Below the pieces are notes generated by a model, which searched no databases, was not told the DNA's origin, and worked only from the letters and a program-made list of their open reading frames with translations. Positions 2,251 through 31,694 of a stretch of 64,000 nucleotides of DNA are shown here, in pieces. This DNA is from Bacteroidota bacterium (GTDB lineage: Bacteria > Bacteroidota > Ignavibacteria > Kapaibacteriales > HRBIN21), in the NCBI GenBank assembly GCA_030550395.1, contig JAUQPL010000001.1, positions 255,795 through 319,794 on the forward strand, given 5' to 3'. The first letter of the stretch is position 1. Every line of letters begins with the position of its first letter. The translations under genes and the position numbers were made by a program.

Positions 2251-4772
<2,522 letters not shown>

Positions 4773-6068: not shown

Positions 6069-6956
6069 TCAGGGAAACACCACCAAGGGCAATCGCCCGA
6101 GCATACCTTCTGCCTCTACTTGCAAGAAGTAAAGCCCTGCCGTCAGCGGCAAGGACAGACGCCAACGGCACAGACCGAGGGGAGGAACCCACTGATAAAC
6201 TGAACGCCCCATCAGATTAAGGAGCTGTACTTTCCGCACCCGTTTGCACCACTCCTCCGACAGGTCTACCTCTACCCACTCCGAAGCAGGCTGTGGGAGA
6301 ATCTGAATTCCCTGTACTGGCTCTTCTCCAACACCGCTGGGCTGTGAGAAGCATTGACTTTCCGCTCCCTGCGATGTCCTCCACGCCATGCAGGTCATGG
6401 TCGTGCTAGGCTCTTGCGGAGAGCCAGAGAACATCATCACCCACAGGGGAACCGCCAAATCTGTGCCTCCTGGCATGATTCCTGTGCCCAGCGTCACAAG
6501 GTCAGGGAGGCTATCGGGATAATTTTGCCGAAAATCCCGATAGGTCTGATTTTGTCCTAGCATTACTATCAGCGAGTCACTGTCCATCCATCCCGATGAT
6601 AAAGGCTGCGCGAGCAATCCCGGAGGGCTCGGTAGTCCCGGCAAAGGCATAGCTTGGAAGCCGACAAAAGAAAGCTTGACAACGGCATAGAACACCGTCG
6701 TATCCCGTTGCACGGAACGGAGGGCATAGATCCAGTAGTTAGCCCTCCCCGTCGCCAAGTCAAACCGCGGTCTTATGAAGTTGACCGGCAGATCGCCCGC
6801 ATAAGCAATCCAGAAAGGTTGGGCATCGGCGAATCCCTCCTGTTGTGCCCTCTGAACAGCTGTCCCCAGCCCCTGCCGGGCTGTAAAGAATTCAAACTGC
6901 TGTGTCCATGCGATCTGACTCAAACAAAGAAAGGCACCCAGCATTGACCACCGCAT
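6069..6956 (-). CDS. Secreted protein with type IX secretion C-terminal sorting domain
   Basis: The 295-residue protein starts with a signal peptide, [20 protein letters not shown]. Its last 85 residues resemble the TIGR04183-type C-terminal domain: [14 protein letters not shown], then [14 protein letters not shown], then [14 protein letters not shown] and a final hydrophobic strand. That domain directs proteins through the type IX secretion system. The central part (residues 20-205) has no domain I recognise. The promoter-like TAATTTTG overlaps the glgA stop codon upstream, suggesting its own transcription start. Function is unknown; it is probably surface-attached or released cargo. Confidence 0.75.
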
Positions 6957-25790: not shown

Positions 25791-26986
25791 TCCCGGCGCT
25801 GCAGCAGAGCAATACACTCCACATGCGGCGTCTGGGGAAACAAGTCCACCGGCTGCAGACACTGTAAGCGGTAAACCGTCAGCAACCGTTTGAGGTCGCG
25901 GGCTTGGGTTACGGGATTGCAGCTTACATAGAGCATCCGCTCAGCAGGATGCTCACAGAGGAACTGCAAAAGACGCCAATGAACCCCCGCTCGTGGGGGA
26001 TCGAGAACAATCAGATCGGGTGCGGGTAGTCGTTCCAACACTGCCTTTCCGGACGGGCGATGCAAGTCAGCCACATGCCATGTCACATTCGTAATGCCGT
26101 TGAGCATTGCATTGACCCGAGCATCTTCAATAGCCGCTTCCACCAGCTCAACACCGTATACCTGAGATACCCAGCGCGCTAAGACTAACGCAATGCTGCC
26201 AGCCCCACAGTAAAGGTCCCAGACGACATCTGTACTCCGTGGAGACGCTAACTCCCGAATACGCCCGAAGAAGCTCTCAAACTGCGTCCAATTCACCTGG
26301 AAGAAAGCAAACGGCGAAATCCGGAACCGAAGCCCCCCGAAACCCTGCTCAATGACCCCATCGCCAGCAAGAATCCGCAACTGCCCTACAGACACAGGGG
26401 ACCACGTATCGTTGATAACATGCCCGACAGTCCGGACCTCAGGAAAACGCTGGGGAAGAAGCTCTGCGATTTCCTCTAAAAAGGACACTTCCTCATCTGC
26501 CGTAGGGGTTGTCGTCACAACCAGTACCATCCACTGATCCGGCGGGGTCGCATAGCGCAGCACCAGATTGCGGAAGAAACCGCTATGCCGCTGATAATCG
26601 TAGGCTCGAATACCGCGTCGTCGTGCCACCGAGCGCACCACTTCCACCAACTCGTTTGCCAATGGAGGTGGAAGCCAGCATTCTACAATGTCGATCACTT
26701 CATCAAAGCGCCCCCGGCGGTGGAGCCCAAGGCGGAGTCCTTGTTCTGCGTCAGGAACAGCTGTAAACTCCATCTTATTGCGATAGGCAAAAGAAGAAGG
26801 CGAGGCAAGGATTGGAAAGCATTCGGGAAGTTCAATCCCTGCCTCGCCGAAAACCCGCCTTACATACTCCTCCTTGCGGCGAAGCTGCTCCGCATAGGGG
26901 ACATCCTGCCAGTGACAGCCACCACAGTGCCCAAAATGCGGGCAGGTCCGTTCCCCTGGCTGCCGCGACGTGGATACGCCTACCAC
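25787..26986 (-). CDS. rlmD: RlmD-type 23S rRNA (uracil-5)-methyltransferase without TRAM domain
   Basis: The 399-residue protein belongs to the RumA/TrmA family. The iron-sulfur cluster cysteines are visible as CPHFGHCGGC near the N-terminus, a CX5CX2C arrangement, with a fourth Cys in VECW. SAM binding is at DLYCGAGSIALVLA, and the catalytic Cys lies in LYVSCNP. It should methylate a uridine of 23S rRNA; which one cannot be told. The N-terminal TRAM domain of E. coli RlmD is not encoded here, even if the frame is followed upstream. Start is GTG at 26986. Confidence 0.85.
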   Translation of the reverse strand: MVGVSTSRQPGERTCPHFGHCGGCHWQDVPYAEQLRRKEEYVRRVFGEAGIELPECFPILASPSSFAYRNKMEFTAVPDAEQGLRLGLHRRGRFDEVIDIVECWLPPPLANELVEVVRSVARRRGIRAYDYQRHSGFFRNLVLRYATPPDQWMVLVVTTTPTADEEVSFLEEIAELLPQRFPEVRTVGHVINDTWSPVSVGQLRILAGDGVIEQGFGGLRFRISPFAFFQVNWTQFESFFGRIRELASPRSTDVVWDLYCGAGSIALVLARWVSQVYGVELVEAAIEDARVNAMLNGITNVTWHVADLHRPSGKAVLERLPAPDLIVLDPPRAGVHWRLLQFLCEHPAERMLYVSCNPVTQARDLKRLLTVYRLQCLQPVDLFPQTPHVECIALLQRRD

Positions 26987-27044
26987 CTCGACACCTTTAT
27001 GGCTCTGCCTTCTCCCGATTCGAAGGAAGGCATCGTCGACAGGG

Positions 27045-27632
27045 TTAGTCCCCCATGACGTGGACGGGGAACTCTACATCCACATCCGTCTCCCCGCCCG
27101 GCTGCGGCGTCTTAGTCCCAGTGTAATGGAATAGACGAATCCGCAACCTACCCTGATGCTCCCCTTCTACATGAAGGACTTTCACTCGTGCCTCCAAGCC
27201 CAAGGGAAGCCCAAGGGAATCCTTATCCAAGCGCTCTATTTGGAGAACGGACTGCAGCTCCGGCGAGAGGTCATAAAAGATTTGGTGGCTGGTGGCTTCC
27301 CTACGAATCTCGTGGGTCAGCGTATCGGTGGGGTCAGCCGTCTCATTGAGAAAATCCAGGCGCAGGCGCCACTGCTGTACATGCCCGTGGAAGTGTATGG
27401 TATCCACCACCGGCGGATTACCCCCTGGACCATCCAGATCACGGAAGGCAAAGACGTGCGTATGCATTGAATCCAGCTCATCCCAGACGTGTACCAGAAC
27501 CGTTGTGATAAGCTCTTGGGGATTTTCTTCCCGCGGCTGGGATGGGTTTTTCTCACATCCGGCTAGCCACGGGAGAGCACAGAGCAGTAGAGCAAGGACT
27601 CTATTTGACCAGCATCTTTGACGAGAGCGCAT
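27045..27632 (-). CDS. Lipoprotein partner of a TonB-dependent receptor
   Basis: The 195-residue protein has a lipoprotein signal, with LAGC at residues 23-26. The body reads ELITTVLVHVW, then FAFRDLDGPGGNPP, LDFLNETADPTDTLTHEI, ATSHQIFYDL, and finally GGETDVDVEFPVHV. This is a conserved pattern I recall from small Bacteroidota lipoproteins encoded beside TonB receptors, whose function is not known. It probably sits on the outer membrane and may help capture the receptor's ligand. ATG at 27632 is chosen over GTG at 27638. It is 28 bases after the receptor gene. Confidence 0.75.
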   Translation of the reverse strand: MRSRQRCWSNRVLALLLCALPWLAGCEKNPSQPREENPQELITTVLVHVWDELDSMHTHVFAFRDLDGPGGNPPVVDTIHFHGHVQQWRLRLDFLNETADPTDTLTHEIRREATSHQIFYDLSPELQSVLQIERLDKDSLGLPLGLEARVKVLHVEGEHQGRLRIRLFHYTGTKTPQPGGETDVDVEFPVHVMGD

Positions 27633-27660
27633 CGGCACACCCCATGTTTGTGGAACATAC

Positions 27661-29937
27661 TCACCACTGCCATCCGAGCCGGAGCATCAGTGTGCGCCCA
27701 GGCTCATCGGCAAAGTACCGAAGTCGGCTGGTATAGTCCCGATAAGCCCGGTTGAAGAGGTTTCGCACTTGGAGCCCAAAGGATAAAATGTGGGAGTCCA
27801 GCCGTGTTTCCCCTCCAAAAGCTCCACCTAAGAGGACATAGCCTGGGGGAGGAGGGGCAAAATCCAACGGTGTCTGCCAAGCCCGTCCAACAGCGGTTAC
27901 TTCCAGCTCCACAAAGACATGCTCCACACCAGCCACAGCAGGTCCATGAGCGTGAAGGCGTCCCTCAAGGCGCGCTGGGGGTATACCGTAGAGAGCCTCC
28001 CGATTAGCCGTTCTCCAGCCCCGCAGGAAAGTGCTCTGAAGCTCTATCCGCAGCCACGGCAGAAGCTCCATCTGGTACTGCATCTCAGCTCCGACAATCG
28101 CCGCCGGCACTGCTTGGTACTGGAATCCGGGAAAAGCGCCGCGAATGGTCAGCACGGGTGTCCCTGTAGGAACACGGGCAATGTAACGAGGAAACCAATA
28201 TAGAAAACCCGTCGCATCTATCTGCCACCCCGTACCACGGTAGAGTCCACCCACCTCTGCCACCCAAAGGCGCTCAGACCTCAATGTTGTGTCTCCTGCT
28301 TCAAAAATAGCTGCTCCGTGGTGAACGCCGTATGCATACAGTTCAAGTACGTTGGGCGCCCGCCAACCGGTTGCAATACCACCGCGCAGTTCTCCCCGGC
28401 GCCAAGCACGCTGTAGAGTAACACTGAACGCCCCACCTCCCCAGCGATGAGAACGACCATACCACTTCCCTTGAACCGAGCGCCATACTGTCAACCACAC
28501 AAGATCTGCTCGGAGCCCCACCAACGCCTTCCAATCTTGCCAAAACCATTGCTGCCATATCCCTGCGCCAAGAAGGTAACTTTGGAAGTTCGGCACCAAG
28601 CGCTGCAGCCCCTCGGAGACATTGCCCTGGCGGCGGGCATCTACGGCAAAGGACATCAGTCCCCCCAATCCCAGTCGCTCAACCTCTGCTCGCATACTCC
28701 ACGTCGTTAGCGTAACATCATAAGCTGCCCGCTGGGCACGATACCGCAGTGAATCATTCCAGAAGCGATGAGCATCATACTCCTGCCGCCTATTTTGTTG
28801 CCAGCTCATTTGGAAGGACCAGCCTCCACCGGCAGAAAAACGACCCTTAGCGGATAGCTCTCCCGTGACGTGGCTCACGTGCTGGTACGGTGGCTCAATC
28901 CGATAGCTTGGAGGGCGTTCGACAAGTGGCCGTACTGCCCGGAATGCCCGCTCTAAATCCGAAAGATTCCCCAAGTGCATTCCAGCAAAGATGCCAAGAC
29001 GTCCCCTAAAGAGCTGGAGGCGTCCTCGAAGGGAAGCATCGCTATTGGGAGAATACTGCAGCACAGCGGTAGCATTGTACTGCTCAAAGGCCGTGTTGGC
29101 AAGTCCATAGCGTGGGGCTTCTACATCAGCCGCTTTTCTGGCACTCAACAATGCCTGGTATCCCCACCGCCCCTGAGCTCCCTCTGCCCAAAATGCTGCA
29201 GCTCCTTGACGATTCCCCGAAAACCCTTCCAGACGTACCTGCCAACGCAGACCTGGCTGCATTAGGATAGAGGCAGGAATGAAGCGAATTACGCCAGCCA
29301 ATGCCTCCGTTCCATACTGTACAGCCGCTGTCCCACGTAGGACCTCTACTGCCCCAACCTGCAAGGGATCCAATTCCGGTGCATGTTCCTCTCCCCAGCT
29401 TTGCCCGTAGATGGGAACCTTGTCGTTGAGCACTAAGAGACGCTCGCCCGTCAGACCACGCAGCATAGGTTTGGCAATGCCAGGACCTGTGCTAATACTA
29501 CCAGCACCGGGTATCGTCCTTATCAGCTCCCCCAGAGTCTGCCCCCGGTGAATATCCAGCTCTCGGGGTCCAACGGTGAGCACCGACGCCGGAGCAACTG
29601 GCAATGAAGCAATCCGTTCCTGCTCAACAGTCAGTTCGGGCAATACAACGACTTCAGGGAACAGAAGCACCACAACAGTTGTATCGCCCTTCACCACGAG
29701 CTCTACCTCTTTGGGACGAAATCCCTCCTTCCGGATCAAGAGCCGATATCGCCCCATCGGAACCTCCGACAACACAAGCCGCCCTCGTAGATCGGTCCGA
29801 TACCGACCATAGAGCTTGTCTACTAGCACCTGAGCCTCTTCCAAAGGCCGCCCGGAGCTATCCCGTACTACAAGCTCTACCCGGGGCAGAGCAACTGCAA
29901 TACTAGCACTCAGGCAGAGTATCCATGCAATGCGCAT
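27661..29937 (-). CDS. TonB-dependent outer-membrane receptor
   Basis: The 758-residue protein has a signal peptide, MRIAWILCLSASIAVALP. A carboxypeptidase-regulatory-like domain follows at about 20-90 (DSSGRPLEEAQVLVD), then a plug at about 110-220 (RGLTGERLLVLNDKVPI, SWGEEHAPELDP, VEVLRGTAAVQYGTEALAG). The remainder is a large beta-barrel ending LRYFADEPGRTLMLRLGWQW. It imports a ligand across the outer membrane with TonB energy. The GEEHAPELDP plug motif and the His/Cys-rich gene upstream hint at a metal or metal complex, which is inference only. Confidence 0.88.
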   Translation of the reverse strand: MRIAWILCLSASIAVALPRVELVVRDSSGRPLEEAQVLVDKLYGRYRTDLRGRLVLSEVPMGRYRLLIRKEGFRPKEVELVVKGDTTVVVLLFPEVVVLPELTVEQERIASLPVAPASVLTVGPRELDIHRGQTLGELIRTIPGAGSISTGPGIAKPMLRGLTGERLLVLNDKVPIYGQSWGEEHAPELDPLQVGAVEVLRGTAAVQYGTEALAGVIRFIPASILMQPGLRWQVRLEGFSGNRQGAAAFWAEGAQGRWGYQALLSARKAADVEAPRYGLANTAFEQYNATAVLQYSPNSDASLRGRLQLFRGRLGIFAGMHLGNLSDLERAFRAVRPLVERPPSYRIEPPYQHVSHVTGELSAKGRFSAGGGWSFQMSWQQNRRQEYDAHRFWNDSLRYRAQRAAYDVTLTTWSMRAEVERLGLGGLMSFAVDARRQGNVSEGLQRLVPNFQSYLLGAGIWQQWFWQDWKALVGLRADLVWLTVWRSVQGKWYGRSHRWGGGAFSVTLQRAWRRGELRGGIATGWRAPNVLELYAYGVHHGAAIFEAGDTTLRSERLWVAEVGGLYRGTGWQIDATGFLYWFPRYIARVPTGTPVLTIRGAFPGFQYQAVPAAIVGAEMQYQMELLPWLRIELQSTFLRGWRTANREALYGIPPARLEGRLHAHGPAVAGVEHVFVELEVTAVGRAWQTPLDFAPPPPGYVLLGGAFGGETRLDSHILSFGLQVRNLFNRAYRDYTSRLRYFADEPGRTLMLRLGWQW

Positions 29938-30037
29938 AACCTCCCTGTGCTCTGTTCAGCAAAGTCACAGATATGCCCCCCCTCTTTCACTGCCCTCCGA
30001 AAAGAACGCGCCACAGCAACAGCGGTGAAATCCGCCT

Positions 30038-30319
30038 TCAGTACGGCGGAGCCCGAGGAACAAATCCGTATCCACCGAAGTCTTGCGATGGGTTCTTTGC
30101 AGATAGCTCAGCAGAGATGAACACCGGTGGTGGTATTTCTACCGCTACACCCCCATCCGGCAGGGTTGGAAACGTCAAAGGGGAAAGCTGGCAAACCCAG
30201 CAGAGGGTCTTGAGTGTGGGGAGTTTTTCATCACCTCCATGTTCATGCCCCCCTTGCAGGAGCACAACCCCAAGCAGCCAGAATCCCAACCCTACGCACA
30301 GAAGACGACGCCACCTCAT
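30038..30319 (-). CDS. Small secreted protein with His and Cys pairs (DUF2946-like)
   Basis: The 93-residue protein has a signal sequence or single membrane anchor (LLCVGLGFWLLGVVLLQGG). It is followed by HEHGG, with His25 and His27, and by LCWVCQ with Cys40 and Cys43, then a Pro-rich tail. That layout resembles small periplasmic metal-related proteins of the DUF2946 type. It stands 100 bases upstream of the TonB receptor gene on the same strand, so the three genes probably form one unit. Its short length makes it a moderate-confidence gene. Confidence 0.6.
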   Translation of the reverse strand: MRWRRLLCVGLGFWLLGVVLLQGGHEHGGDEKLPTLKTLCWVCQLSPLTFPTLPDGGVAVEIPPPVFISAELSAKNPSQDFGGYGFVPRAPPY

Positions 30320-30431
30320 AGAGGAATCTTGAAAGTTCGGCTCTCAGGACGAACACCTCATCACAGTAGTGCACCGATGATGCGCCCGAATCGTCCTAAT
30401 AGGCAGGAAACCAAGCATGAGGCCGTGCAGC

Positions 30432-31694
30432 ATGGCTTACGTAGCTCTCGTCGGCATTGGAGACGAACTATGCATCGGTCAAATCGTAAACACGAACGCA
30501 GCATGGCTAGCCCAGCGGTGCACGGAACTGGGCTTCCGCCCTATCCGTCACAGCGTCGTCGGTGATAACGTGGAAGACATTGTCTCTGAACTTCGCCGCC
30601 TCTGGCAGCAAGCTGAGCTTGTGATTACAACCGGGGGATTAGGACCCACGCACGATGATGTTACGACTCTGGCTTTGGCCACGTTGGTAGAGAGCCCCTT
30701 ACACGAGCACCCGACGGTCCGGAAGTGGCTGGAAGAAATCGCACAACGTCGTGGACTTGTCCTCTCCGAGCGTATACTCCGGCAAGCTCTCTTGCCAGAA
30801 GGCGCCCTCCCGCTATATAACTCTGTCGGACAGGCCCCGGGCATTTGGATAGAGCGTAACGGAAGAGCGCTCTTAGCCCTCCCTGGGGTTCCGGCAGAAA
30901 TGCAAGCTATCGTTGAAGGCTCTGCAATGGAGCTGCTCCGCGCCTTTCGGCAGCGCCTCGGTGGCAATGTTCTCCGTTTCCACACAATTGTCACCGCCGG
31001 TATTGCCGAAGCACCCCTAGCCGACCTGCTCGGCGATCCCTCCACTTTCCTCCCCGAAGGCGTCACCTTGGCTTTTCTCCCTTCCTTCTGGGGGGTGCGC
31101 TTACGGCTGAGCGTCACTGCATCCTCGCTTGAGGAAGCGGACAAACGCTTAGGAGAGGTACGGCAACACCTCCTTCAGCGCATTGCCCCTTACGTCATCG
31201 GTGAAGGCGAGACCAGCCTCGCCCATAGGGTTGGTGAACTACTGCGCCAGCGGGGTGAAACTCTCGCCATTGCCGAGTCCTGTACCGGTGGCCTCTTGGG
31301 TACAACGATCACGGATATCGCCGGAAGCTCGGACTACTTCCTGGGGGGACACATCGTCTACAGTAATGCGGCAAAGACCGCTTTCCTCGGGGTTCCCGAA
31401 GAACTCCTCCAGCGTGTCGGCGCTGTCAGCCGCGAAGTTGCCGAGTTACTGGCAAAGAACGTGCGCACTGCTTTCCAGGCAACATACGGCATCGGCATTA
31501 CAGGGATTGCCGGTCCCGGCGGCGGTACCCCGCAGAAGCCCGTGGGCACTGTCTGGATTGGGTTAGCAACCCCGGAGTATGTCCGCGCCCGCCACTTCCT
31601 CTTCGGAAACGACCGCTCCGCTAATCGTCAACGGGCAGTCGCCGCAGCTCTGACTTGGCTTTACCGGACTCTCCAAGGGATTCCCGAAGAGTAG
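30432..31694 (+). CDS. cinA: CinA-like protein (molybdopterin-binding domain plus NMN amidase)
   Basis: A protein of about 420 residues with two domains. The N-terminal MoCF-like (COG1058) domain has VGIGDELCIGQIVNTN and TTGGLGPTHDDVT. The C-terminal PncC-type domain has ETLAIAESCTGGLLGTTITD, FLGGHIVYSN and GITGIAGPGGGTPQKPVGTV. It deamidates nicotinamide mononucleotide and may hydrolyse ADP-ribose in NAD recycling. An in-frame ATG lies at 30417, but the one at 30432 gives the family's usual start (MAYVALVGIGDEL). tsaD begins 1 base after its stop. Confidence 0.94.
   Translation: MAYVALVGIGDELCIGQIVNTNAAWLAQRCTELGFRPIRHSVVGDNVEDIVSELRRLWQQAELVITTGGLGPTHDDVTTLALATLVESPLHEHPTVRKWLEEIAQRRGLVLSERILRQALLPEGALPLYNSVGQAPGIWIERNGRALLALPGVPAEMQAIVEGSAMELLRAFRQRLGGNVLRFHTIVTAGIAEAPLADLLGDPSTFLPEGVTLAFLPSFWGVRLRLSVTASSLEEADKRLGEVRQHLLQRIAPYVIGEGETSLAHRVGELLRQRGETLAIAESCTGGLLGTTITDIAGSSDYFLGGHIVYSNAAKTAFLGVPEELLQRVGAVSREVAELLAKNVRTAFQATYGIGITGIAGPGGGTPQKPVGTVWIGLATPEYVRARHFLFGNDRSANRQRAVAAALTWLYRTLQGIPEE

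Follow-up and report, generated by a model that had tools for sequence, protein, structure and literature searches.

A CruR/DUF2946-like leader with an added HxH motif heads a probable zinc-uptake operon in the Bacteroidota

Bacterial zinc uptake is usually explained by Zur repression. Among the DUF2946 leaders that have been studied, CruR and CutF are copper sensors, and neither protein has been detected in cells (PMC9426467, PMC9973294). CruR (bp2923, DUF2946) from Bordetella pertussis heads the operon bp2923–bfrG–bp2921; its CxxC and RAPP motifs are 45 residues apart, a spacing that tolerates changes of one or two residues, and RAPP is needed for expression, CxxC for the copper response, with control exerted by Rho-dependent termination (PMC9426467). 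Translation arrest by CruR has been shown in vitro with the PURE system (PMC12992588), and Sec genes are a further target of RAPP arrest peptides (PMC10987492). A survey of RAPP-containing upstream open reading frames (uORFs) found TonB-linked examples in all Gram-negatives and reported copper-related ones to be absent from Bacteroidota (EMBO J 2025; PMC12992588), and a survey of CutF-like proteins found many members in Bacteroidota, some of which were suggested to bind nickel or cobalt (PMC9973294). Zinc is not mentioned in the main texts of PMC12992588 and PMC9973294, the authors of the CruR study point out that riboswitches for copper or zinc are not known (PMC9426467), and we found no nascent-peptide zinc sensor in the literature on these leaders. 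Here we describe a three-gene locus that we consider likely to be a single zinc-uptake operon under the control of its first gene, a CruR/DUF2946-type arrest leader. The leader type is already known; as far as the cited papers show, what is new relative to published work on CruR, CutF and RAPP peptides is the assignment to zinc, the HxH signature and the pairing with a lipoprotein.

Inspection of the open reading frames (ORFs) in the window, a 64,000-nucleotide (nt) stretch of a Kapaibacteriales genome, revealed a leader, a receptor and a lipoprotein gene in this order, all on the minus strand, as the first-pass annotation had described; the gaps between them measure 100 nt and 22 nt. The CruR/DUF2946-like leader ORF (P0003; 30038–30319; 93 residues) stands at the operon head and is followed by a G-rich 100-nt intergenic region (29938–30037). 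Next come the TonB-dependent receptor (P0002; 27661–29937; 758 residues), which is ZnuD-like according to Pfam and PDB profile searches, and the lipoprotein (P0001; 27045–27638; 197 residues), which belongs to a family without a name and has an LAGC lipobox with the lipid Cys C28. The HEHGG and LCWVC segments of the small protein (GGHEHGG and LCWVC in P0003), the carboxypeptidase-regulatory domain of the receptor and the three quoted motifs of the lipoprotein (DLDGPGGNPP, LNETADP and a third) are all present as annotated. That annotation overlooked the C-terminal RAPP of the small protein, which changes what the small protein means. P0003 consists of an exported start, an HxH motif straight after the membrane segment (H25 and H27; 30239–30247, minus strand), a CxxC motif (CWVC, C40 and C43; 30191–30202, minus strand), exactly 45 residues, RAPP (R89–P92; 30044–30055, minus strand), a single Tyr and the stop codon. 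The locus thereby resembles the cruR–bfrG–bp2921 operon, in which an exported small protein with CxxC, a 45-residue spacer and RAPP near the stop also heads three genes and a TonB receptor is second. It differs in the added HxH, in its zinc-type receptor, in a third gene that encodes a lipoprotein where the CruR operon has PepSY_TM, and in the gap after the leader (100 nt, as against 162 for CruR and 6–60 nt in several relatives); moreover, the window leader is too divergent from the CruR family for a Pfam match.

Across the window's genome and 60 relatives, the lipoprotein is encoded in 36 of the 61 genomes, as a single copy in each. The receptor family is present, mostly adjacent, at 35 of 40 lipoprotein loci (four of which come from a separate scan). 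The small protein lies directly upstream of the receptor in 29 of the 34 assessable receptor loci, comprising 26 matches to a sequence pattern, given below, and three variants or contig-cut copies; among the other assessable loci, the leader is absent at three order-level ones, and two more have a different small ORF. The linkage that the first-pass annotation had noticed at one locus, and had proposed to check in homologues, is borne out and far above chance. At two Cytophagales-type loci (L037 and L039), another small exported ORF, with FN[FV]LYYIIQ[RK]FK near its C-terminus, stands directly upstream of the same receptor, and there is no RAPP leader.

In an alignment of 44 lipoprotein sequences, the lipid Cys C28 and residues H118, H171 and D185 are invariant, and HDHDHDH-like tails follow the Cys in many members of the family, though not in the window copy. 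The lipoprotein has no match in Pfam, NCBIfam or the PDB. Its AF2 model (pLDDT 78) is a fairly confident but generic Ig-like sheet, and a fold search with it returned generic Ig-like or β-sandwich matches only. We propose that the lipoprotein may capture zinc for the receptor.

The receptor contains CarboxypepD_reg, Plug and TonB barrel domains, each above its Pfam cut-off. A PDB search with a profile of 14 receptors gave ZnuD at 1.9e-89 (304 bits), as compared with 4.4e-32 (114 bits) for OprC, making ZnuD from Neisseria meningitidis (4RDR) the closest PDB relative of the family. ZnuD coordinates zinc through Asp99, His100, Glu340 and His499 (PMC4557270), and these align with E184, H185, E386 and H539 of the window receptor, on a ZnuD chain index equal to the mature numbering plus 14, an offset inferred from the four residue identities. 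E184 and H185 lie in the GEEHA segment of the plug (29383–29388, minus strand), E386 is encoded at 28780–28782 and H539 at 28321–28323 (both minus strand), and H185, E386 and H539 are conserved in 100%, 96% and 98% of 60 receptors, respectively. The four zinc-ligand positions are counted as kept, with the caveat that the window receptor has Glu at the Asp99 position, a conservative change. It also differs from ZnuD in having a CarboxypepD_reg domain, and it is named ZnuD-like rather than ZnuD because its score against the NCBIfam ZnuD model NF038289 is 48 bits, far under the cut-off of 950; on the side of the OprC copper receptor, its score against TIGR01778 is 43 bits, with a cut-off of 472. 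The plug motif GEEHAPELDP, which had been offered as a clue to a metal ligand, holds two of the ZnuD zinc-ligand positions. The metal idea can therefore be kept for the receptor and narrowed to zinc, on the strength of the best relative and the four ligand positions, whereas its extension to the micro-protein as part of the uptake machinery is probably wrong. A fold search was rejected as a test of the metal, since ZnuD, OprC and siderophore receptors were inseparable and the model of the plug was poor (mean pLDDT 65).

The leading alternative is that the same architecture serves copper, with a true CruR leader controlling a copper-uptake receptor. CruR and CutF sit upstream of copper genes, as do most DUF2946-like leaders rich in Cys (PMC9426467, PMC9973294), and CxxC is a good Cu(I) binder. 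OprC is a metal TonB receptor of the same fold that is often preceded by a CruR homologue. However, the copper site in the OprC plug is CxxxM (PMC8610252), and this site is absent from the window receptor, which has GEEHA there, and from the other leader-linked receptors checked. With the ZnuD ligand positions present and the Cys/Met site of OprC missing, the receptor sequence indicates that the metal is probably zinc and not copper.

The genes that follow related leaders also bear on the choice of metal. Of 296 phylum genomes, 58 gave a match to a leader profile. We inspected 39 loci that lie outside the order of the window, leaving out a few profile matches; some genomes contributed two loci. 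The leader heads a ZnuD-like receptor at 23 of these loci, a ZnuA-type operon at five and a CobW GTPase at two; the remainder comprise five loci with ABC-2/DUF3526 genes and a TonB receptor, one with ABC/FtsX/DUF3299 genes and three with other TonB receptors. Two of the five ZnuA-type operons were judged by sequence only, and of the CobW loci one was scanned and one judged by sequence. Within the window's order, CobW genes adjoin the lipoprotein in one family (f7), and at one locus (L174) leader, receptor and ABC-2/DUF3526 follow one another as consecutive genes. As a point against zinc, ZnuA-family proteins can carry metals other than zinc, and those leader-linked members that we checked lack a His-rich loop. 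PA4066 of Pseudomonas we take to be a DUF3299 protein. The zinc-depletion response of Pseudomonas includes ZnuD, PA4063–4066 and CobW (PMC4542158). In Caulobacter, according to the parts of the report cited here, Zur represses the TonB receptor gene znuK and the ABC-2 transporter genes znuGHI (PMC4176598), a pairing that recurs at several leader-headed loci and at L174; the control there is transcriptional, through Zur, and those parts describe no leader. No copper-specific family occurs among the 25 commonest of the 29 Pfam families near the leaders. These neighbours, together with the reported absence of copper-related RAPP uORFs from Bacteroidota (PMC12992588), argue against the copper explanation, which we regard as unlikely.

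Among the leader-headed loci outside the order, all five ZnuA loci have an unassigned exported protein of 354–421 residues between the leader and ZnuA (L145:3366–4430, L151:3368–4513 and L155:2623–3759, and also in L146 and L156); the four of these that were scanned match no Pfam family. One cluster (L142) contains two leaders (3074–3409 and 6365–6676), each followed by its own TonB receptor. In an order-level genome without the lipoprotein, the leader (L153:7042–7404) heads a gene for a 288-residue exported protein whose family was not assigned. No leader accompanies the sole ZnuA-family protein of the window's genome (L164:4637–6204), which comes after what looks like a regulator of the DtxR type.

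The pattern of conservation in the leader itself is informative about its role. A pattern of CxxC and, towards the C-terminus, R[AGST]PP matched 26 of 5,934 ORFs scanned in relatives; each of the 26 immediately precedes the receptor gene, is encoded on its strand and has a spacer of 42–45 residues. In an alignment of 25 leaders, HxH, CxxC and xPP do not vary even though identity averages 23%, and dN/dS values of 0.07–0.40 for close leader pairs in relatives indicate that the leader is a protein under selection. RAPP or RGPP occurs close to the C-terminus of 61 ORFs, and 59 of these are either such leaders (53) or one-Cys variants of them (six). Pfam DUF2946 (PF11162) matches five of the 25 aligned leaders (best 2.4e-8) and, in a profile search of genomes, exceeds the curated cut-off in three genomes, and P0003 has no Pfam or NCBIfam match; the family link thus runs through intermediates, and P0003 alone is not assignable. 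A few leaders from more distant parts of the phylum lack a strict HxH, and three DUF2946 proteins of Burkholderia, which have a CGYC-45-RAPP layout, show none behind the membrane segment. HxH plus CxxC would make a natural four-ligand zinc site.

An exported N-terminus, purifying selection, and HxH and CxxC motifs that could bind metal are what might be expected if the micro-protein were instead a secreted zinc or copper chaperone that partners the receptor and regulates nothing. We consider this distinctly unlikely, as only three short motifs are kept and the remainder drifts, in relatives the distance between CxxC and RAPP is fixed and the stop follows RAPP after a few residues at most, operons of widely differing content all begin with this gene, and the failure to detect CruR and CutF in cells is at odds with such a function. 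The first-pass annotation had cast the micro-protein as an uptake component, which poorly explains what we found; its CxxC-45-RAPP layout, its position and its DUF2946 relatives indicate that P0003 is most likely a regulatory leader. A third possibility, that the receptor takes haem or another non-metal ligand and the leader responds to a different cue, export status for instance, is very improbable: the best NCBIfam score of the receptor is indeed to a haem subfamily (TIGR01785, under the cut-off) and RAPP peptides do control Sec genes (PMC10987492), but ZnuD was itself once misannotated as a haem receptor (PMC4557270), ZnuD scored far above haem receptors in the PDB profile search, and the leader combines metal motifs with downstream zinc genes.

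We therefore return to the arrest leader of a zinc-uptake operon. When zinc is scarce, the ribosome would stall on RAPP at the leader's end, allowing the genes for the receptor and the lipoprotein to be expressed. When zinc is ample, the metal would bind the nascent peptide at HxH plus CxxC and release the stall, upon which Rho-dependent termination, or a step equivalent to it, would end downstream expression. The receptor would import zinc over the outer membrane through its ZnuD-type site, and the lipoprotein may capture the metal or hand it on beside the receptor. For the phylum as a whole, we lean towards the view that the HxH-CxxC-RAPP arrest leaders of Bacteroidota form a family of zinc sensors, which act once transcription is under way to switch zinc-uptake operons of several kinds.

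Rho is encoded in the genome, and C-over-G enrichment distinguishes leaders as a group from equal-length controls (63 leaders, KS 3e-15, with related loci not being independent). In the window, the C>G bubble expected of a Rho site is not significant (rank 0.12), which counts against the proposal, as do the G-richness of the 100-nt gap and the very short gaps at several loci. A weak hairpin-and-T site in the intergenic region (30024–30009) is no better than chance. CutF from Rhodobacter capsulatus (DUF2946-like) is likewise an exported leader with a Cys motif and a proline-rich C-terminus that controls the next gene, but it turns on a multicopper oxidase through a stem-loop that covers the ribosome site. 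General unmasking of the SecM/CutF type finds no support here: in RNA folding, a stalled-ribosome footprint exposed downstream start sites no more than a shifted one did (50 loci, Wilcoxon p = 0.58). No Rfam family was found in 26000–31500, and promoter and terminator scans did no better than shuffles. The genome encodes one Fur-family protein; the Zur, Fur or copper-regulator boxes that the first-pass annotation had proposed to scan for did not emerge from a simple repeat and promoter scan, in which none of the inverted repeats upstream of the leader made a convincing box.

If the proposal is correct, a ribosome-stalling zinc sensor would form a second layer beside Zur and a new way to read zinc levels. 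The leader could then serve as a marker that flags likely zinc operons, and its context gives an orphan lipoprotein family a probable role. Its anatomy offers precise mutants: AxA, SxxS, AAPP and altered spacer length.

Variant leaders extend the range of forms. A tblastn search of plasmids with one leader gave no match. The six one-Cys leaders (L146, L149, L156, L157, L159 and L160) keep HxH and RAPP or RGPP, and still head metal genes, namely two ZnuA-type operons and four ZnuD-like receptors. In Prevotella oral taxon 299, a leader with HYH and CSVC (L166:2934–3329) ends in NSPPFFWA in place of RAPP and is followed by the receptor and two different lipoproteins.
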